Shown piece after piece: positions 45,463 to 51,091 of a DNA stretch of 64,000 nucleotides. The notes under the pieces were generated by a model. The model had not been told where the DNA came from. It did no database searches and saw only the letters and a program-made list of their open reading frames with translations. Source of the stretch: Vreelandella neptunia (GTDB taxonomy: Bacteria; Pseudomonadota; Gammaproteobacteria; Pseudomonadales; Halomonadaceae); the NCBI RefSeq assembly GCF_000712975.1, contig NZ_JHQL01000002.1, positions 1-64,000 of the forward strand, read 5' to 3'. A program made the translations under genes and the position numbers. How positions within the stretch are numbered: position 1 is the stretch's first letter; each line of letters begins with the position of its first letter.

Positions 45463-46203
45463 TTAAGGGGCAATACCCTGGCCGCAGCCTTTGTACTGCT
45501 CCCCGCCGATGGTCAATGTGACTCGGGCGGGATATGGCTGGCCTTTCATATCATCAAAACAGGCGCCTGATTCAATACGTACACGGAAAAACTGATCAGC
45601 GTTGGCATTCTCAATCACCACCCTACCCGCTTCGTTATCCATGACACTCACCATATAGGGCATCGTTTGCGTCTCGCTACCGTAGGCTGTTGTCCAGGTC
45701 ATGATCGGCGCATCATGGGCAAGCTCAATCGACCAACCTGGCTCATTACCACGCCCCAAGAACATCACGCCGGGGTGATCCGCCCGTGTGGCTGCTGCTC
45801 GGCGCTGCCCCTGTCGACATTGAAGCTGACCACGCGGTGTTTCCACCTGCGCCTGATCGCCACGGTTCCAGAAGCTGACCTCTCCATCCTGATAGCGCGC
45901 ACCGCTTGCCACGACCGCTTCTGGTAAACGCCAGGCACCATGCAGTGACCAAAGCCGCAAATTATCGTCGTTCACCGCGGTGACCAAGTTTTGGTTGGCG
46001 GGCTGACACTCCCAGGCGTCAAAGTACGACGCGCTACCAGGAAACAGGACAGCAGGCAGTAATGGTGCACTGCTGTGTACCGTTGTTTTAGACACTTCAG
46101 CAGTAGAATCAGCAGGTGTTGCCCCAGTATTTGCACAGCCTGCCAGCACAACCGAGGCAGTCAGCGCAATTAAACCAGTTAACCGATTAGGTAAGTAAGT
46201 CAT
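45463..46203 (-). CDS. Lipoprotein with MliC-like and COG3650-like domains
   Basis: A 246-residue lipoprotein, lipobox VLAGC (Cys23). Residues about 62-132 resemble the MliC lysozyme-inhibitor fold: YFDAWECQPANQ, then SGARYQDGEVSFWNRGDQAQV and a closing Cys. The second half (GNEPGWSIELAHDAPIMTW ... RVTLTIGGEQYKGCGQ) resembles COG3650-type domains. It may protect peptidoglycan from lysozyme or act in envelope homeostasis. Both are inferences from weak domain likeness. It converges with the DUF457 gene. Confidence 0.7.
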   Translation of the reverse strand: MTYLPNRLTGLIALTASVVLAGCANTGATPADSTAEVSKTTVHSSAPLLPAVLFPGSASYFDAWECQPANQNLVTAVNDDNLRLWSLHGAWRLPEAVVASGARYQDGEVSFWNRGDQAQVETPRGQLQCRQGQRRAAATRADHPGVMFLGRGNEPGWSIELAHDAPIMTWTTAYGSETQTMPYMVSVMDNEAGRVVIENANADQFFRVRIESGACFDDMKGQPYPARVTLTIGGEQYKGCGQGIAP

Positions 46204-46352
46204 GCATCCTGCTCCCTGTTGTTATCACTGTTGTTACCACTATTACTATTCATGCCGCTATCTTTGTGATGTTTTTCATTATCATAAACATCGTCAATGG
46301 ACGCCTACTTAGCGTTCAGCGCATTTCTTCTGAATAAACAAATTCAATTCGT

Positions 46353-46865
46353 TTAGCGGCGCTTAAATGCTTTTAAGTCCTGTGGATCAAAACTGTCAAC
46401 CTGGGCTGGCAGCCCTAATTCTTCGCGTTTCAGCCTTATCTGCATTTTTTCAGCGAGACGTTCTGAATCATCATCGGTAGTACGACCGTTGAGTTCAGCG
46501 AGCTGCGTCATCCCCTGATGGTAAAACGTCACAATATCCAGCGCTACGCGATTATCTTCTTCCACTCCCCGGCGCAGTGGCTGTAGGTAACCACTAATAT
46601 GGGAAAGGTGATGCTTGAGCTGCCAAACATAGCGCATTTCAGTCATCCAAGGCCGATCCTTGAGAACTGCAAACATCGCGCTAGTGGCTAATAGACCTAG
46701 AAACACACCCAGCGCATTAAGCCATAGACTACTGCCAAAAGCAGATGTTAAAAGCATTGAGAACAGTAGCCCAAAGACGATCAACTGCCCTGCCATGGCA
46801 ATGCTGATCATTCGCGCCTTGCGCTGATAACTGCTAGGGTCATGCTGCTCAAGAGTGAAAACCAT
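46353..46865 (-). CDS. DUF3087 membrane protein
   Basis: A 170-residue protein started at the ATG at 46865 (MVFTLEQHDPSSYQRKARMI) because GAGG lies six bases before it. Earlier in-frame ATGs exist. Two membrane helices at about 20-40 and 48-66 are followed by a cytosolic helical tail. The pattern fits DUF3087, common in marine gammaproteobacteria and of unknown function. It lies downstream of the DAHP synthase gene. Confidence 0.8.
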   Translation of the reverse strand: MVFTLEQHDPSSYQRKARMISIAMAGQLIVFGLLFSMLLTSAFGSSLWLNALGVFLGLLATSAMFAVLKDRPWMTEMRYVWQLKHHLSHISGYLQPLRRGVEEDNRVALDIVTFYHQGMTQLAELNGRTTDDDSERLAEKMQIRLKREELGLPAQVDSFDPQDLKAFKRR

Positions 46866-46955
46866 GGCCAACCTCATCATCAAAAGTAGTCCCTTATGAT
46901 ACGGGGCTGACCAGGGCAAACAAGTGATTATCAAGCTCGCCGTAGATAACCAGTA

Positions 46956-48035
46956 TTAACTCATTCGCTCGGCAGCAGTTTTAAGCAACCGTTCGGTCGT
47001 TTCCCAACTCACACAGGCATCGGTCACCGACACGCCGTAACGCATCGCGTTGGGTGACAGCGCTTGCTTACCTTCATACAAATGGCTTTCGAGCATTAAT
47101 GCGACCAAATTAGCATCGCCCGCTTTACGCTGCGCCAGCACGTCGAGCATAACCTCACTTTGGCGTCGGTGATCTTTTCGCGCATTGGCATGACTGCAGT
47201 CCACCATTAAGCGAGGATTCTGTCCGGCGTCTCGTAAGGTATTCACCGCTGCTCGCACATGATGCGCTTGGTAGTTTGGTTCGCCATGACCACCTCGTAA
47301 CACCACATGCGTATTGGGGTTACCAGCGGTTTCCTGCATGACCGGCCGCCCTTCACTATTCATTGCGAAACGCTGGTGGGAATGCGCCGCTGCCTGCATA
47401 GCATCAATAGCAACCTGGACGTCGCCACTAGTGGCATTTTTAAACCCCACTGCTGCCGTGAGATCGCTGGCCAGCTCGCGATGCAGCTGTGATTCCGTGG
47501 TACGTGCGCCAATAGCGACCCAGCTCAACAGATCATCTAAGTAAGGTGCCAACATGGGTTGTAAAAGCTCAGTAGCCACCGGCAAGCCCCGTGAGGCTAC
47601 GGCATGCATCAACTCACGAGAGAGCGATATGCCCTTTGGCATATCGCCACTGCCGTCTAAATCAGGGTCATATGCCAAACCTTTCCAACCCACTGTAGTT
47701 CGTGGTTTTTCAACGTAAACACGCATTACCGGTAGCAGTTGCTCGCTCACTTCTTCACTAAGCGCAGCCAGCCGATCGGCGTACTCTAGCGCGGCATGCG
47801 GGTCATGGATAGAACAAGGGCCAACTACCACTAATAAGCGGCTATCTTGACCATTCAAAATGCGCTGAACCGCTTGGCGCTGATGGGCAATTTGCGCATT
47901 CAATTGGCTATCGATACCTACACTGCGGCGTAGCTCTGCTGGCAAAGGCAACGGCTGCGATGAGTTCGTGGGGCCATTCGTTAATGACGCTAGATTTGAC
48001 AAGGTTGCGCAAGCAGGGCTGACATGGGCATTCAT
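46956..48035 (-). CDS. 3-deoxy-7-phosphoheptulonate (DAHP) synthase, class I (AroF/G/H family)
   Basis: First enzyme of the shikimate pathway: phosphoenolpyruvate plus erythrose 4-phosphate to DAHP. The 359-residue protein has LLVVVGPCSIHDP near residue 67, RVYVEKPRTTVGWKGL, GARTTESQ and VGFKNATSG, plus metal-site segments LMVDCSHANARKDHRRQ and ESHLYEG. Which aromatic acid inhibits it (F, G or H type) cannot be told. GGAG lies 9 bases upstream inside the end of a 58-aa leader-like ORF whose stop is 3 bp before the ATG. An attenuator lies further up (48273-48493). Confidence 0.94.
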   Translation of the reverse strand: MNAHVSPACATLSNLASLTNGPTNSSQPLPLPAELRRSVGIDSQLNAQIAHQRQAVQRILNGQDSRLLVVVGPCSIHDPHAALEYADRLAALSEEVSEQLLPVMRVYVEKPRTTVGWKGLAYDPDLDGSGDMPKGISLSRELMHAVASRGLPVATELLQPMLAPYLDDLLSWVAIGARTTESQLHRELASDLTAAVGFKNATSGDVQVAIDAMQAAAHSHQRFAMNSEGRPVMQETAGNPNTHVVLRGGHGEPNYQAHHVRAAVNTLRDAGQNPRLMVDCSHANARKDHRRQSEVMLDVLAQRKAGDANLVALMLESHLYEGKQALSPNAMRYGVSVTDACVSWETTERLLKTAAERMS

Positions 48036-48038
48036 AAC

Positions 48039-48215
48039 TTAACTCTCCGGAAGCGTATGACATCGTGATAACAACAACATGCCACCCTGGCTTGCACGGT
48101 CGGAGGTGGCAGCTTGCACCGACCGCGCGTCGCTAAATCGCCAGCCATAGCCATAACCGATATAGTTAGCAACGTTGGCGAGCAGATTAGCGAGAGAGTT
48201 TGCGCGGTACATCAT
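48039..48215 (-). CDS. 58-aa leader-like ORF upstream of DAHP synthase, aromatic-rich
   Basis: It begins with two ATGs (48215, 48212) behind a perfect AAGGAG (48223-48228, 7-bp spacing). Residues 18-27 read YIGYGYGWRF: three Tyr, one Trp and one Phe in ten. The stop is 3 bp before the enzyme ATG. Just past the aromatic codons (ending 48135), a 10-bp stem with one G-U pair (48119-48128 with 48094-48103) can form. A rival 7-bp stem (48105-48111 with 48080-48086) precedes TTGTTGTT. Likely a second regulatory leader. A functional small protein is the alternative. Confidence 0.65.
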   Translation of the reverse strand: MMYRANSLANLLANVANYIGYGYGWRFSDARSVQAATSDRASQGGMLLLSRCHTLPES

Positions 48216-48272
48216 GATGCAGCTCCTTGATGAAAGTCCTGTGAAATCTGAGCAATTAACCTAAATAAACAG

Positions 48273-48318
48273 TTAAAACAAAAGAAGCCTCGGTTGGGCT
48301 ACCAACCGAGGCTTCTTT
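48273..48318 (-). terminator. Attenuator terminator upstream of DAHP synthase
   Basis: A perfect 17-bp stem, AAAGAAGCCTCGGTTGG (48281-48297) with its complement at 48302-48318, loop of four. On the minus strand it is followed by TTTTGTTTT. It lies 43 bp after the leader peptide stop and 238 bp before the enzyme gene, so full activity would stop transcription before the gene. Confidence 0.9.
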
Positions 48319-48339
48319 GCATGCGGCAGGCAACCTAGT

Positions 48340-48386
48340 CGGTGTGCCTGATGACGCGACGCTACTGGTCGGCCAGGGGCACACCG
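48340..48386 (-). promoter_or_regulatory. Attenuator pause stem (1:2) and antiterminator arm
   Basis: CGGTGTGCC (minus strand, 48378-48386) starts at the last aromatic codon of the leader and pairs with GGCACACCG (48340-48348). That second arm can instead pair with the 5' arm of the terminator: GGC with GCC, ACCGA with TCGGT and AGG with CCT. This gives the standard choice between terminator and antiterminator. Confidence 0.75.
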
Positions 48387-48493
48387 TAGCTAAACCAATA
48401 GACAGCATAAAAGAACGCAGCAACACACGCCCACACACCAGCCGCCGATGCTGGCTTTGCTTGTGTGTGTTGAATGCATTGTGCTGTGTGCAT
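48362..48493 (-). CDS. Aromatic leader peptide of the DAHP synthase attenuator
   Basis: A 43-residue ORF from the ATG at 48493, preceded by AGGA at 7 bp. A longer frame to 48574 is possible, but this start has the ribosome site. Residues 27-36 are FFYAVYWFSY: three Phe, three Tyr and one Trp, and Trp21 lies earlier. These codons (48415-48386) run into the first arm of the pause stem. Ribosome stalling when charged Phe, Tyr or Trp tRNA is scarce would mask that arm and favour readthrough into the DAHP synthase gene. The mechanism is inferred from the sequence layout, as in trp and phe attenuators. Confidence 0.85.
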   Translation of the reverse strand: MHTAQCIQHTQAKPASAAGVWACVAAFFYAVYWFSYGVPLADQ

Positions 48494-48577
48494 GGCTACG
48501 TCCTGATTCACATTAATTGTCGAGAACAGTGCTTCTAATGGGTTAATCCTGCCTGCATAGAGGCAAAATGGCAACCA

Positions 48578-48706
48578 TCAACCGCCAAACGCTTGTATCC
48601 AACCAATAGTAGCGGGCAGTGCGCTCATACTCACCAGCACAACAACACCGAGCACAATAGCAAGCAAACCTGATTCGTCTTTAAAGTTGTCGTCATGGTG
48701 GGCCAT
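48578..48706 (-). CDS. 42-aa single-helix membrane peptide, unknown function
   Basis: A strong AAAAGGAGG lies just upstream of the ATG at 48706. The product has an acidic/His N terminus (MAHHDDNFKDESG), one hydrophobic helix (about residues 14-34) and ends WIQAFGG. I do not recognise the family. It lies between fre and the aromatic leader peptide, same strand. A palindrome CGGCATATGCCG (48737-48748) is 31 bp upstream. Confidence 0.7.
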   Translation of the reverse strand: MAHHDDNFKDESGLLAIVLGVVVLVSMSALPATIGWIQAFGG

Positions 48707-48772
48707 GAAAGCCTCCTTTTTATCAGTATCGGTTACCGGCATATGCCGAACACCAGTTATTGGCCAGCTATT

Positions 48773-49555
48773 TTAGTGAGGACGAGGCGCGTAAGCAAAC
48801 ACATCTGAGAACATTCGCTCACTGTCAATACCTTTCCGTTCTAAGATATTAACACAGGCGTACACCATACCCGGCGAACCCGACAAGTAGATATCACAGC
48901 CGCTGGGCGACCCAGCCATTCCACTCTCAAGCATGTTCTCAAGATCACTCTCTAACACCAAGTCAATGCGCCCTTGATGATGCGTGATACGCTCGCCTTC
49001 TGCTAGCGGCTCAGTCAGTGGAAACTCTGTCACCGCTTGGAAAGAAATATTGGCATACTGCTGTGCCCATTCGCAGGCCAGATCTTCCGCATAAAGATCA
49101 CGATGTTCGCGATTGGCCCACCATAGTGAAATGGGCCGTTCAGGCTGCTGTCTTAGTACCGCCTCAACAATCGCCTTCATTTGTGCAAAGCCTGTACCTG
49201 CAGCAATTAGCAACAGAGGACGCTCGCTTTGCGTGTCTAATACACATTCACCGCTGGGTAGGCGAACAGTCAACTGATTAGCTACCTGCAATAACTCTCG
49301 CAGGCGAGCAGAGTTATCTCGCTCAGGCCAGTGCTGAATATGTAATTCGATAATACCGTCACCGCGTTCCGCGCTGGCAATAGAAAACGGTACCCAAGTG
49401 TTATCGTCTAGTTTGAGCTCTAAATACTGCCCAGGCGCATGCTGCATGGCCTCGGGCCGCCCTTCCAGGGTCACCCCAAAGACATCGGGATTTAAATCCT
49501 CAACGGCGGTTACCTGGCAGATTAACGTTCTGCAAGTTAACGTGCTTGCGCTCAT
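48773..49555 (-). CDS. fre: NAD(P)H-flavin reductase (Fre/LuxG-like)
   Basis: A 260-residue ferredoxin-reductase-fold protein without an iron-sulfur domain. The flavin-binding segment is VPFSIAS (about 55-61), the nucleotide site is LLLIAAGTGFAQMKAI (114-129), and the C-terminal YLSGSPGMVYACVNIL closes the NAD domain. Fre proteins reduce free flavins with NAD(P)H. It follows ubiD by 42 bp, as in E. coli. GAGG precedes the ATG. Confidence 0.9.
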   Translation of the reverse strand: MSASTLTCRTLICQVTAVEDLNPDVFGVTLEGRPEAMQHAPGQYLELKLDDNTWVPFSIASAERGDGIIELHIQHWPERDNSARLRELLQVANQLTVRLPSGECVLDTQSERPLLLIAAGTGFAQMKAIVEAVLRQQPERPISLWWANREHRDLYAEDLACEWAQQYANISFQAVTEFPLTEPLAEGERITHHQGRIDLVLESDLENMLESGMAGSPSGCDIYLSGSPGMVYACVNILERKGIDSERMFSDVFAYAPRPH

Positions 49556-49597
49556 GAAAGCCTCTATATAGAAAGTCGCCCGACCTGCGCCACTGGG

Positions 49598-51091
49598 TTA
49601 GCCGTGGCGAGGAGTGGGTAATGGGATATCAATGCCCAGCTCGTCCCAGCGCTCATCAACGCGGGTTTTTATCGAATCATCCATCACAATGGGCGTTCCC
49701 CACTCACGATCCGTTTCGCCTGGCCATTTATTGGTAGCATCGAGCCCCATCTTGGAACCTAACCCAGACACCGGCGACGCAAAATCGAGGTAGTCAATAG
49801 GGGTGTTTTCCACCATCACCGTATCCCGCGCCGGGTCCATGCGCGTGGTAATGGCCCACATCACATCTTCCCAGTTACGCGCATCGATATCGTCATCTAA
49901 TACAATGACAAATTTGGTGTACATGAACTGACGCAGAAAACTCCACACCCCCATCATGACGCGCTTGGCGTGACCCGGGTACTGCTTCTTCATGGTCACA
50001 ACAGCCATTCGATAGGAGCACCCTTCCGGTGGTAGGTAGAAATCGACAATTTCGGGGAACTGCTTACACAGAATGGGAACAAACACCTCGTTAAGCGCAA
50101 CCCCTAAAATGGCTGGCTCATCGGGTGGGCGGCCGGTGTAGGTGGAGTGATAAATCGCGTCCCGCCGCATGGTCATCCGCGTCACGGTGAACACAGGGAA
50201 GTGATCAACTTCATTGTAATAACCGGTGTGATCGCCAAACGGTCCTTCTGGTGCCATATCGTCGGGGTAGAGAAACCCTTCAAGAATGATTTCAGCCGAC
50301 GCAGGCACATCCAACTCTGCATGACCGCACTTGACCAGCTCGGTGCGCGAGCCTCTAAGCAACCCAGCAAAAGCGTATTCAGACAGCGAATCAGGAACCG
50401 GCGTCACGGCACCTAAAATTGTTGCAGGATCAGCCCCCAACGCCACTGCCACAGGGAATGGCTCACCGGGATGCGCTTTTTGAAACTCAAGAAAATCCAG
50501 CGCACCACCGCGATGGGAAAGCCAACGCATGATCAGACGGTTTTTACCGATTTTCTGCTGACGATAAATGCCAAGATTTTGGCGCTTTTTATGCGGGCCT
50601 TTGGTAATTACCAGCGGCCAAGTTACCAGCGGCGCGGCATCACCTGGCCAGCAGTGCTGGATCGGCAAACGGCCTAAGTCAACCTCATCACCTTCATACA
50701 CCACTTCTTGCACGGGGGCTCGCTTGACATTTTTGGGCCCCATGCTGAGCACCTGCTTAAAAATCGGCAGCTTGTCCCAGGCGTCTTTAAGCCCTTTCGG
50801 CGGATCAGGTTCCTTTAGGAACGCCAGTAGTTTACCTACCTCGCGCAGTGCTTCTACTGAATCTTGACCCATACCGAGCGCTACCCGCCTAGGCGTACCA
50901 AACAGGTTGCCCAATAGCGGCATATCATGGCCCTTCACATTCTCAAACAATAGTGCAGGGCCACCAGCGCGCAGTGTACGGTCACAAATTTCAGTAATTT
51001 CGAGATAGGGGTCGACTTCTGCTTTAATCCGCTTCAGTTCACCCTGCGCTTCAAGCGCTGCAATAAAATCGCGCAAGTCGTGGTACTTCAA
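49598..51091 (-). CDS. ubiD: 4-hydroxy-3-polyprenylbenzoate decarboxylase
   Basis: A prenylated-FMN enzyme of ubiquinone synthesis that decarboxylates 3-octaprenyl-4-hydroxybenzoate. The 497-residue length equals the usual UbiD. Recognisable segments are [40 protein letters not shown] and [19 protein letters not shown], the last near the cofactor site. The start is TTG at 51091 with GGAG six bases upstream. It follows rho after 72 bp. Confidence 0.96.

Follow-up and report, generated by a model that had tools for sequence, protein, structure and literature searches.

In Vreelandella neptunia (assembly GCF_000712975.1), a type I DAHP synthase gene on the minus strand of contig NZ_JHQL01000002.1 is preceded by a leader region in which, along that strand, a first leader ORF, a 9-bp stem, an intrinsic terminator and a second leader ORF follow one another up to the gene. 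All coordinates refer to the window, which is the whole stretch of 64,000 nucleotides that was analysed (positions 1 to 64,000 of the contig), and the features are the following.

48543..48574, minus strand: promoter-like block TTGCCATTT..GCAGGCAGGATTAA, visible in the alignment of 22 genus loci including the window
48362..48493, minus strand: leader ORF 1, 43 aa, MHTAQCIQHTQAKPASAAGVWACVAAFFYAVYWFSYGVPLADQ followed by the stop codon (ORF translation)
48389..48400, minus strand: core of leader 1, TATTGGTTTAGC, Tyr-Trp-Phe-Ser codons (59 aligned rows)
48378..48385, minus strand: segment 1, GGTGTGCC, can pair with segment 2
48341..48350, minus strand: segment 2, CAGGCACACC, can pair with segment 1 or 3
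48324..48335, minus strand: segment 3, GGTTGCCTGCCG, can pair with segment 2 or 4
48297..48308, minus strand: segment 4, CGGTTGGTAGCC, upper part of the terminator 5' arm plus loop, putative antiterminator partner of segment 3
48281..48318, minus strand: intrinsic terminator, perfect 17 bp with a 4-base loop, T-rich tail to 48273 (covariation)
48039..48215, minus strand: leader ORF 2, 58 aa, MMYRANSLANLLANVANYIGYGYGWRFSDARSVQ.., stop just 5' of the DAHP synthase ATG
48135..48164, minus strand: aromatic codon cluster of leader 2, YIGYGYGWRF (ORF translation)
48119..48128, minus strand: predicted pseudoknot stem S1, 5' arm (leader 2 alignment)
48105..48110, minus strand: predicted pseudoknot stem S2, 5' arm (leader 2 alignment)
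48094..48103, minus strand: predicted pseudoknot stem S1, 3' arm (leader 2 alignment)
48081..48086, minus strand: predicted pseudoknot stem S2, 3' arm (leader 2 alignment)
46956..48035, minus strand: DAHP synthase, type I, aroFGH type (PF00793, 2e-79; aroFGH, 2.5e-131)

Leader ORF 1 ends in ..FFYAVYWFSYGVPLADQ (also written ..AAFFYAVYWFSYGVPLADQ) and contains FFYAVYWFSY, an AGGA sequence is located 7 nt 5' of its ATG, and the stem CGGTGTGCC/GGCACACCG lies directly 3' of its aromatic codons. The original prediction for this DNA had described a 43-aa leader with seven aromatic residues in ten codons, a 9-bp stem after them, a perfect 17-bp terminator with a T tract and a DAHP synthase gene downstream, all of which were recovered (the ORF at 48493-48362, the terminator at 48318-48281, and the stem and protein matches given above); leader ORF 2, between the terminator and the gene, was absent from it. 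The leader RNA fold of the window sequence is more stable than 200 of 200 shuffles (z -6.0).

The promoter-like block lies approximately 50 nt 5' of leader 1 in the window and has diverged in one genus locus (L049). A consensus promoter was sought at this block and none was found, the match to sigma-70 being poor; judging from the alignment, the block is probably a promoter or a regulator site. A small, partly hydrophobic ORF of 42 aa (MAHHDDNFKDES..FGG, 48578-48706, minus strand) has no Pfam or NCBIfam match, and its 3' half is present just upstream in several relatives. Further upstream on the same strand are a flavin-reductase-like gene (48773-49555) and a UbiD-type decarboxylase gene (49598-51091), and genes for a DUF3087 protein and an MliC-like protein are found 3' of aroF, also on this strand (region 45463-51091).

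The first leader and its conservation

Sixty-one genomes of the genus were drawn, among them that of the window and one of the same species (loci L001-L061); all 61 contain a DAHP synthase gene, and the upstream DNA was read for each. The leader 1 motif is present in 61 of 61, in 60 by motif search and in L040 by inspection, where YWFG replaces YWFS and GGA replaces AGC within an unchanged layout, so that the originally proposed aromatic cluster is indeed conserved in close relatives. Leaving aside L002, which is identical to L001, and L040, which falls outside the motif, 59 distinct aligned rows were obtained, in which TTT and AGC of the core are invariant (59 of 59), TAT being kept in 58 of 59. 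An aromatic cluster as such is not rare, since five stop-to-stop segments in the six frames of the window reach seven aromatics out of ten, and its significance therefore rests on conservation. Selection for slow codons is not supported, TTT (0.65) and TAT (0.52) being the commoner codons in the 37 long ORFs of the window. Neither leader motif was found within 500 nt upstream of the genome's other DAHP synthase gene or of two paralogues in relatives.

The sequences YWFS and WRFS are conserved in nucleotides as well as in peptide, and AGC, for Ser, equals the aromatic codons in conservation, which would fit a leader peptide that itself arrests the ribosome, its nascent chain sensing a free amino acid, as opposed to a codon-specific shortage of charged tRNA. 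TnaC is an example of such sensing. We consider this unlikely here, because leader 1 is free to vary among relatives in its N-terminal half, and the number and order of the aromatic residues vary among leaders (FFYAVYWF, FYGYWF, SYWYWF), as expected for codon counting. Another reading takes leader ORF 1 for a small membrane protein gene ending a flavin-reductase operon, with the terminator closing that operon and leader 2 alone regulating aroF; the leader 1 sequence looks hydrophobic, and a small ORF and a reductase-like gene lie upstream on the same strand. Such an arrangement is hardly probable at all, given that leader 1 has no Pfam or NCBIfam match and an N-terminal half that is not conserved, that the element precedes aroF in other families, and that in one genus locus (L056, genome G030) leader 1 and its terminator stand directly before the DAHP synthase gene without the leader-2 motif. 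By its sequence, this last locus is a natural single-leader version. An aromatic attenuator of the DAHP synthase gene with mixed Phe, Tyr and Trp codons, as originally predicted, is strongly supported by conservation and by gene association, and from the conserved Y-W-F codons it is plausible that leader 1 senses Tyr, Trp and Phe.

Alternative helices and proposed switch logic

Judged by sequence pairing, the transcript can adopt four overlapping helices, 1:2, 2:3, 3:4 (the antiterminator) and 4:5 (the terminator). Helix 1:2 is paired in 98.4% of cells over the 59 rows, with three pairs changed on both sides; on four of five measures none of 500 shuffles came up to it, and on the fifth 22 did. 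For helix 4:5, with 89.2% of cells paired and nine pairs changed on both sides, only 1 of 500 shuffles was as high. Helix 2:3 (CAGGCA.ACC with GGTTGCCTG) is paired in 99.1% of cells without any both-side change and is equalled by the shuffles; its support is pairing alone. Helix 3:4, which by its pairing is mutually exclusive with the terminator, is likewise paired in 99.1% of cells and shows one both-side change in the 59 rows, a value reached by 33 of 500 shuffles.

Segments 3 and 4 were also compared in 181 elements from all loci (some genomes contributing twice), which yielded 61 distinct combinations. A 3:4 duplex forms in each of the 60 combinations listed (e.g. GGGCTGCC:GGCAGCCC and GGTGACC:GGTTACC), with a mean z of -3.25 against base shuffles and 89% below -2. 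The native 3:4 duplex beats the cross-species duplexes in 47 of 61 cases (mean -19.0 versus -17.4 kcal/mol), as do the native helices 1:2 in 105 of 110 and 2:3 in 108 of 110, an advantage of which relatedness could produce part.

The second arm of the stem had been proposed to switch to the 5' arm of the terminator (2:4), as in a classical four-segment attenuator, where a stall masks segment 1 and 2:4 pairing blocks termination. This part of the original prediction did not hold up, since 2:4 is paired in 78.9% of cells across the 59 rows and the conserved antiterminator uses segment 3. Helix 2:4 is the lowest-energy fold of the window when the transcript is cut before the terminator 3' arm with a ribosome at the stop codon; that is, however, the state in which termination is wanted, and five of its 18 pairs, mostly mid-helix, are present in just 8-26 of 59 relatives (for one of them, 24 of 43), compared to the 99.1% of 3:4. 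In addition, the Tyr and Trp codons lie 5' of segment 1, and a ribosome stalled on them covers little or none of segment 1. The four-segment layout of the trp type, with 2:3 as antiterminator and 3:4 as terminator, does not fit either, the terminator being 4:5 and the conserved antiterminator 3:4. The classical arrangement thus appears distinctly unlikely to us. The covariation of stems expected in relatives is seen as both-side changes in 1:2 and 4:5.

The five-segment switch was further modelled by folding the 59 sequences at equilibrium, as growing transcripts with an assumed ribosome shadow of 13 nt; the probabilities (P) given are means over the 59 unless the window is named. In leader 1, the aromatic codons lie just 5' of segment 1, and the distance from the stop codon to segment 2 is 11 nt. 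With a ribosome stalled on Tyr, P(1:2) is 0.90-0.96 and P(3:4) reaches 0.96-0.97 at columns 112-120, before most of the terminator 3' arm is made. A Trp stall gives P(3:4) of 0.94-0.97 at the same columns and P(1:2) of only 0.43-0.73 up to column 108, while segment 4 is still incomplete; in the window itself 2:3 leads at columns 84-92 (0.77-0.96), with P(1:2) at 0.02-0.19. When the ribosome is at the stop codon, P(1:2) is 0 and P(2:3) 0.94-0.96 to column 104, P(3:4) is then 0.60-0.80 at columns 112-116 (0.11 in the window), and later 2:3 and the terminator win. A stall at the last Phe codon resembles this state early on (2:3 at 0.85-0.94 to column 104, 3:4 at 0.81-0.89 at columns 112-116), and Phe sensing would therefore rest on the upstream Phe codons. 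Without a ribosome, P(3:4) is 0.96-0.97 at columns 112-116, and the window prefers 2:3 (0.74-0.75) at columns 92-100. In these models the window agrees less well with the five-segment scheme when the ribosome stalls on Trp or is absent. Since the terminator dominates the full-length transcript in every ribosome state, the 3:4 antiterminator must act kinetically, by timing, and since at equilibrium 3:4 competes even in the stop-codon state, the scheme depends on 2:3 forming first and holding. We infer that the model predicts antitermination on starvation for Tyr, less surely for Trp, and for Phe via the upstream codons.

The best explanation, to which we assign a probability of about 0.7, is that segments 1-5 constitute a ribosome-mediated transcription attenuator controlling this DAHP synthase, with leader 2 likely as a second step. 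When aromatic aminoacyl-tRNAs are scarce, the ribosome would stall on the aromatic codons just 5' of segment 1 and leave hairpin 1:2 intact, so that segment 3 would be free to pair with segment 4; once 3:4 is formed, the terminator would come too late and RNA polymerase would read through. With ample supply, the ribosome would reach the stop codon, mask segment 1 and end about at segment 2, upon which 2:3 would form and segment 4 would be released into the terminator, stopping transcription. The chain being one segment longer than the textbook four, a stall should spare and not break hairpin 1:2, and by the same five-segment parity a loss of leader translation should give readthrough and not extra termination.

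Occurrence beyond the genus and relation to sRNA P15

At E 0.001, a covariance model built from the 59 genus rows (R1) found matches in 72 of 293 genomes belonging to the order, Pseudomonadales in GTDB; three-quarters are without a match, and some weak matches cover the terminator only. Thirty loci of the order were fetched, being the best per genome (a second match of 44.6 bits in G020 was left out), and a DAHP synthase gene lies downstream, on the strand of the element, in 30 of 30, with the leader-2 motif within the next 330 nt in 21. A wider model (R2) matched 113 of 121 family genomes, 106 of them with at least 40 bits, and 74 of 321 genomes of the class (E 0.001). Among the 27 loci fetched outside the order, a DAHP synthase was found in only two (L214 and L216, of one family); the other 25, without a DAHP synthase, look like terminator matches. 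One genus of the family, g360 (G668, G689, G702, G712, G722 and G732), contains 11-16 R2 matches per genome compared to 1-8 in other matching genomes of the family, perhaps repeated terminators or more copies of the element.

Scanning named genomes with an exact pattern returned at least 119 stretches, a scan that is uninformative on the conservation of the core letters because these are fixed by the pattern. The genera among the matches listed include Pseudomonas, Stutzerimonas, Halomonas, Vreelandella, Chromohalobacter, Salinicola, Halotalea, Alcanivorax and Denitrificimonas, and the element extends beyond Halomonadaceae. The downstream check covered 80 among the matches listed: 75 have a DAHP synthase gene 136-374 nt downstream and the other five have less than 600 nt of sequence left, while the leader-2 motif occurs in 71 of the 76 listed matches with more than 420 nt downstream. 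The remaining 39 stretches (L175-L213) were used only in the analyses of the leader-2 block and of segments 3 and 4.

The element is homologous to the Rfam family RF00627, 'Pseudomonas sRNA P15'. P15 was reportedly first described in P. aeruginosa by Livny and colleagues. RF00627 passes its cut-off at 12 of 21 loci, 3 of 6 in one set and 9 of 15 in another, with 70.6-128.7 bits, the Pseudomonas and Stutzerimonas loci scoring 100-129 bits; it stays below cut-off at the Halomonadaceae-type loci L100, L105, L122, L152 and L215 and also at L136, L080, L093 and L214. In 194 order genomes it gave 15 matches, one per genome, 10 of them above cut-off and all on places found by R1, and in 14 named control genomes it gave no match. 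The window copy scores 32.7 bits (E 5.9e-5) and does not reach the gathering cut-off of 70 bits; by way of intermediates and the same genomic place, its sequence marks it as a homologue of RF00627 and not as an Rfam-grade member. Matches to the Rfam families His_leader and BSnc120 were below cut-off and taken as chance.

Termination would leave a short RNA, which in Pseudomonas would be 'sRNA P15'. Rfam catalogues RF00627 as an RNA gene, its entry lines stating no leader peptide, attenuator or target, and the name P15 could suggest that the short RNA acts mainly in trans, as a small RNA to which the downstream gene is incidental. This we hold to be highly unlikely, as DAHP synthase lies downstream in 30 of 30 fetched loci and in 75 of the 80 matches listed (the other five having too little sequence left), an ORF within the element ends in the motif, and conservation extends to the antiterminator pairing.

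The second leader and possible two-stage control

The leader-2 TGGCGATTTA motif (searched as TGGCGNTTYA) is present in 60 of 61 genus loci, L056 being the one without it, and a stricter search for motif plus ORF found it in 50 of 61. Beyond the genus the second leader is not uniform: in Stutzerimonas and in part of the Pseudomonas loci, leader 2 is present without the 69-nt block described below, the Alcanivorax loci L136, L142 and L170 lack the motif, and in L080 and L081, placed with Alcanivorax by genus label, it is degenerate. The number of Tyr-Gly codons before WRF varies (GYGYGYGYGW to GYGW) in L035, L016 and L019, as if the repeat slipped and thereby tuned the number of Tyr codons.

The alignment of a 69-nt block starting with TGGCGATTTAGC is gap-free over 107 distinct sequences, which may be because the block is also coding. 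It is predicted to form two crossing helices, S1 and S2, that together make an H-type pseudoknot. Over the 107 rows, S2 is paired in 100% and S1 in 83.9% of cells, the sequences having been collected by a pattern that fixes part of the block and favours part of the S2 pairing; the outer two pairs and the sixth pair of S1 are unpaired in 61, 52 and 47 of 107 rows, respectively. Both-side changes affect 7 pairs and 68 cells, compared to means of 4.7 and 33.9 in 500 shuffles, of which 14 reached the 7 pairs and none the 68 cells. A control slide by +3 gave 6 both-side pairs and 72 cells with only 44% paired. S2 is retained by RNAalifold, a program that cannot represent pseudoknots. Folding of 53 sequences gave no clear switch in the masking of the gene's ribosome binding site by leader 2 structures: its mean unpaired probability is 0.51 when free and 0.43, 0.31, 0.55 and 0.56 with the ribosome at four successive places. 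A frameshift at TTTAGC into the aroF frame was rejected on inspection, a -1 slip hitting a stop at once and the frame being closed in some relatives. Leader 2 with its predicted pseudoknot is a probable second control step, in which the readthrough RNA would meet a further set of aromatic codons and the pseudoknot.

In enteric bacteria, the trp, pheA and pheST attenuators have four segments and one leader and sense one amino acid, whereas here five segments and the codons of three amino acids are found. These enteric systems share with the present one the leader peptide, the alternative hairpins and the terminator (PMC11802643). For aroF of E. coli, too, an attenuator has been proposed in the past. 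Corynebacterium glutamicum aroR is a leader peptide that controls aroF, a DAHP synthase gene, by transcription attenuation (PMC4046766, PMC11802643); it resembles the present system in its aromatic codons (Phe-Tyr-Phe) and its target, but is reported to respond to limitation for Phe and not Tyr, consists of one leader for which the parts covered mention no Trp codon, and belongs to another phylum. The Acholeplasma uORFC-13-1 motif, a proposed attenuator, likewise has a uORF, tied to Phe, before an apparent terminator upstream of aroF, but is described from Acholeplasma and environmental sequences only, with no second leader mentioned in the part of the source covered (PMC8632094). Among the matches of the literature search that were listed, the open-access titles and abstract openings, subscription papers being outside this scope, describe no such leader in Pseudomonas or Halomonas; PA1750 is mentioned only as a protein in the part covered of PMC4263517, and neither aroF nor DAHP occurs in the main text of PMC2965389, which deals with premature terminators. 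P15 is not named in the main text of the papers in which it was looked up. Leader-peptide attenuation of a DAHP synthase is as such already known, while the architecture, the second leader and the P15 identity look new.

Taken in full, our tentative proposal, whose chances we put at somewhat less than even, is that the orphan 'sRNA P15' is the terminated leader of an odd-segment DAHP synthase attenuator, in which the stalled ribosome protects the first hairpin and which acts in series with a second leader and a pseudoknot, providing two-stage control by all three end products. If true, this would explain how the first step of aromatic synthesis is controlled in Pseudomonas, Halomonas and relatives, assign an identity to a small RNA whose role Rfam does not state, and extend the known forms of attenuation by a five-segment, two-leader design. 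Since Pseudomonas putida and Halomonas are production hosts, the leader would as such also be a practical engineering target.
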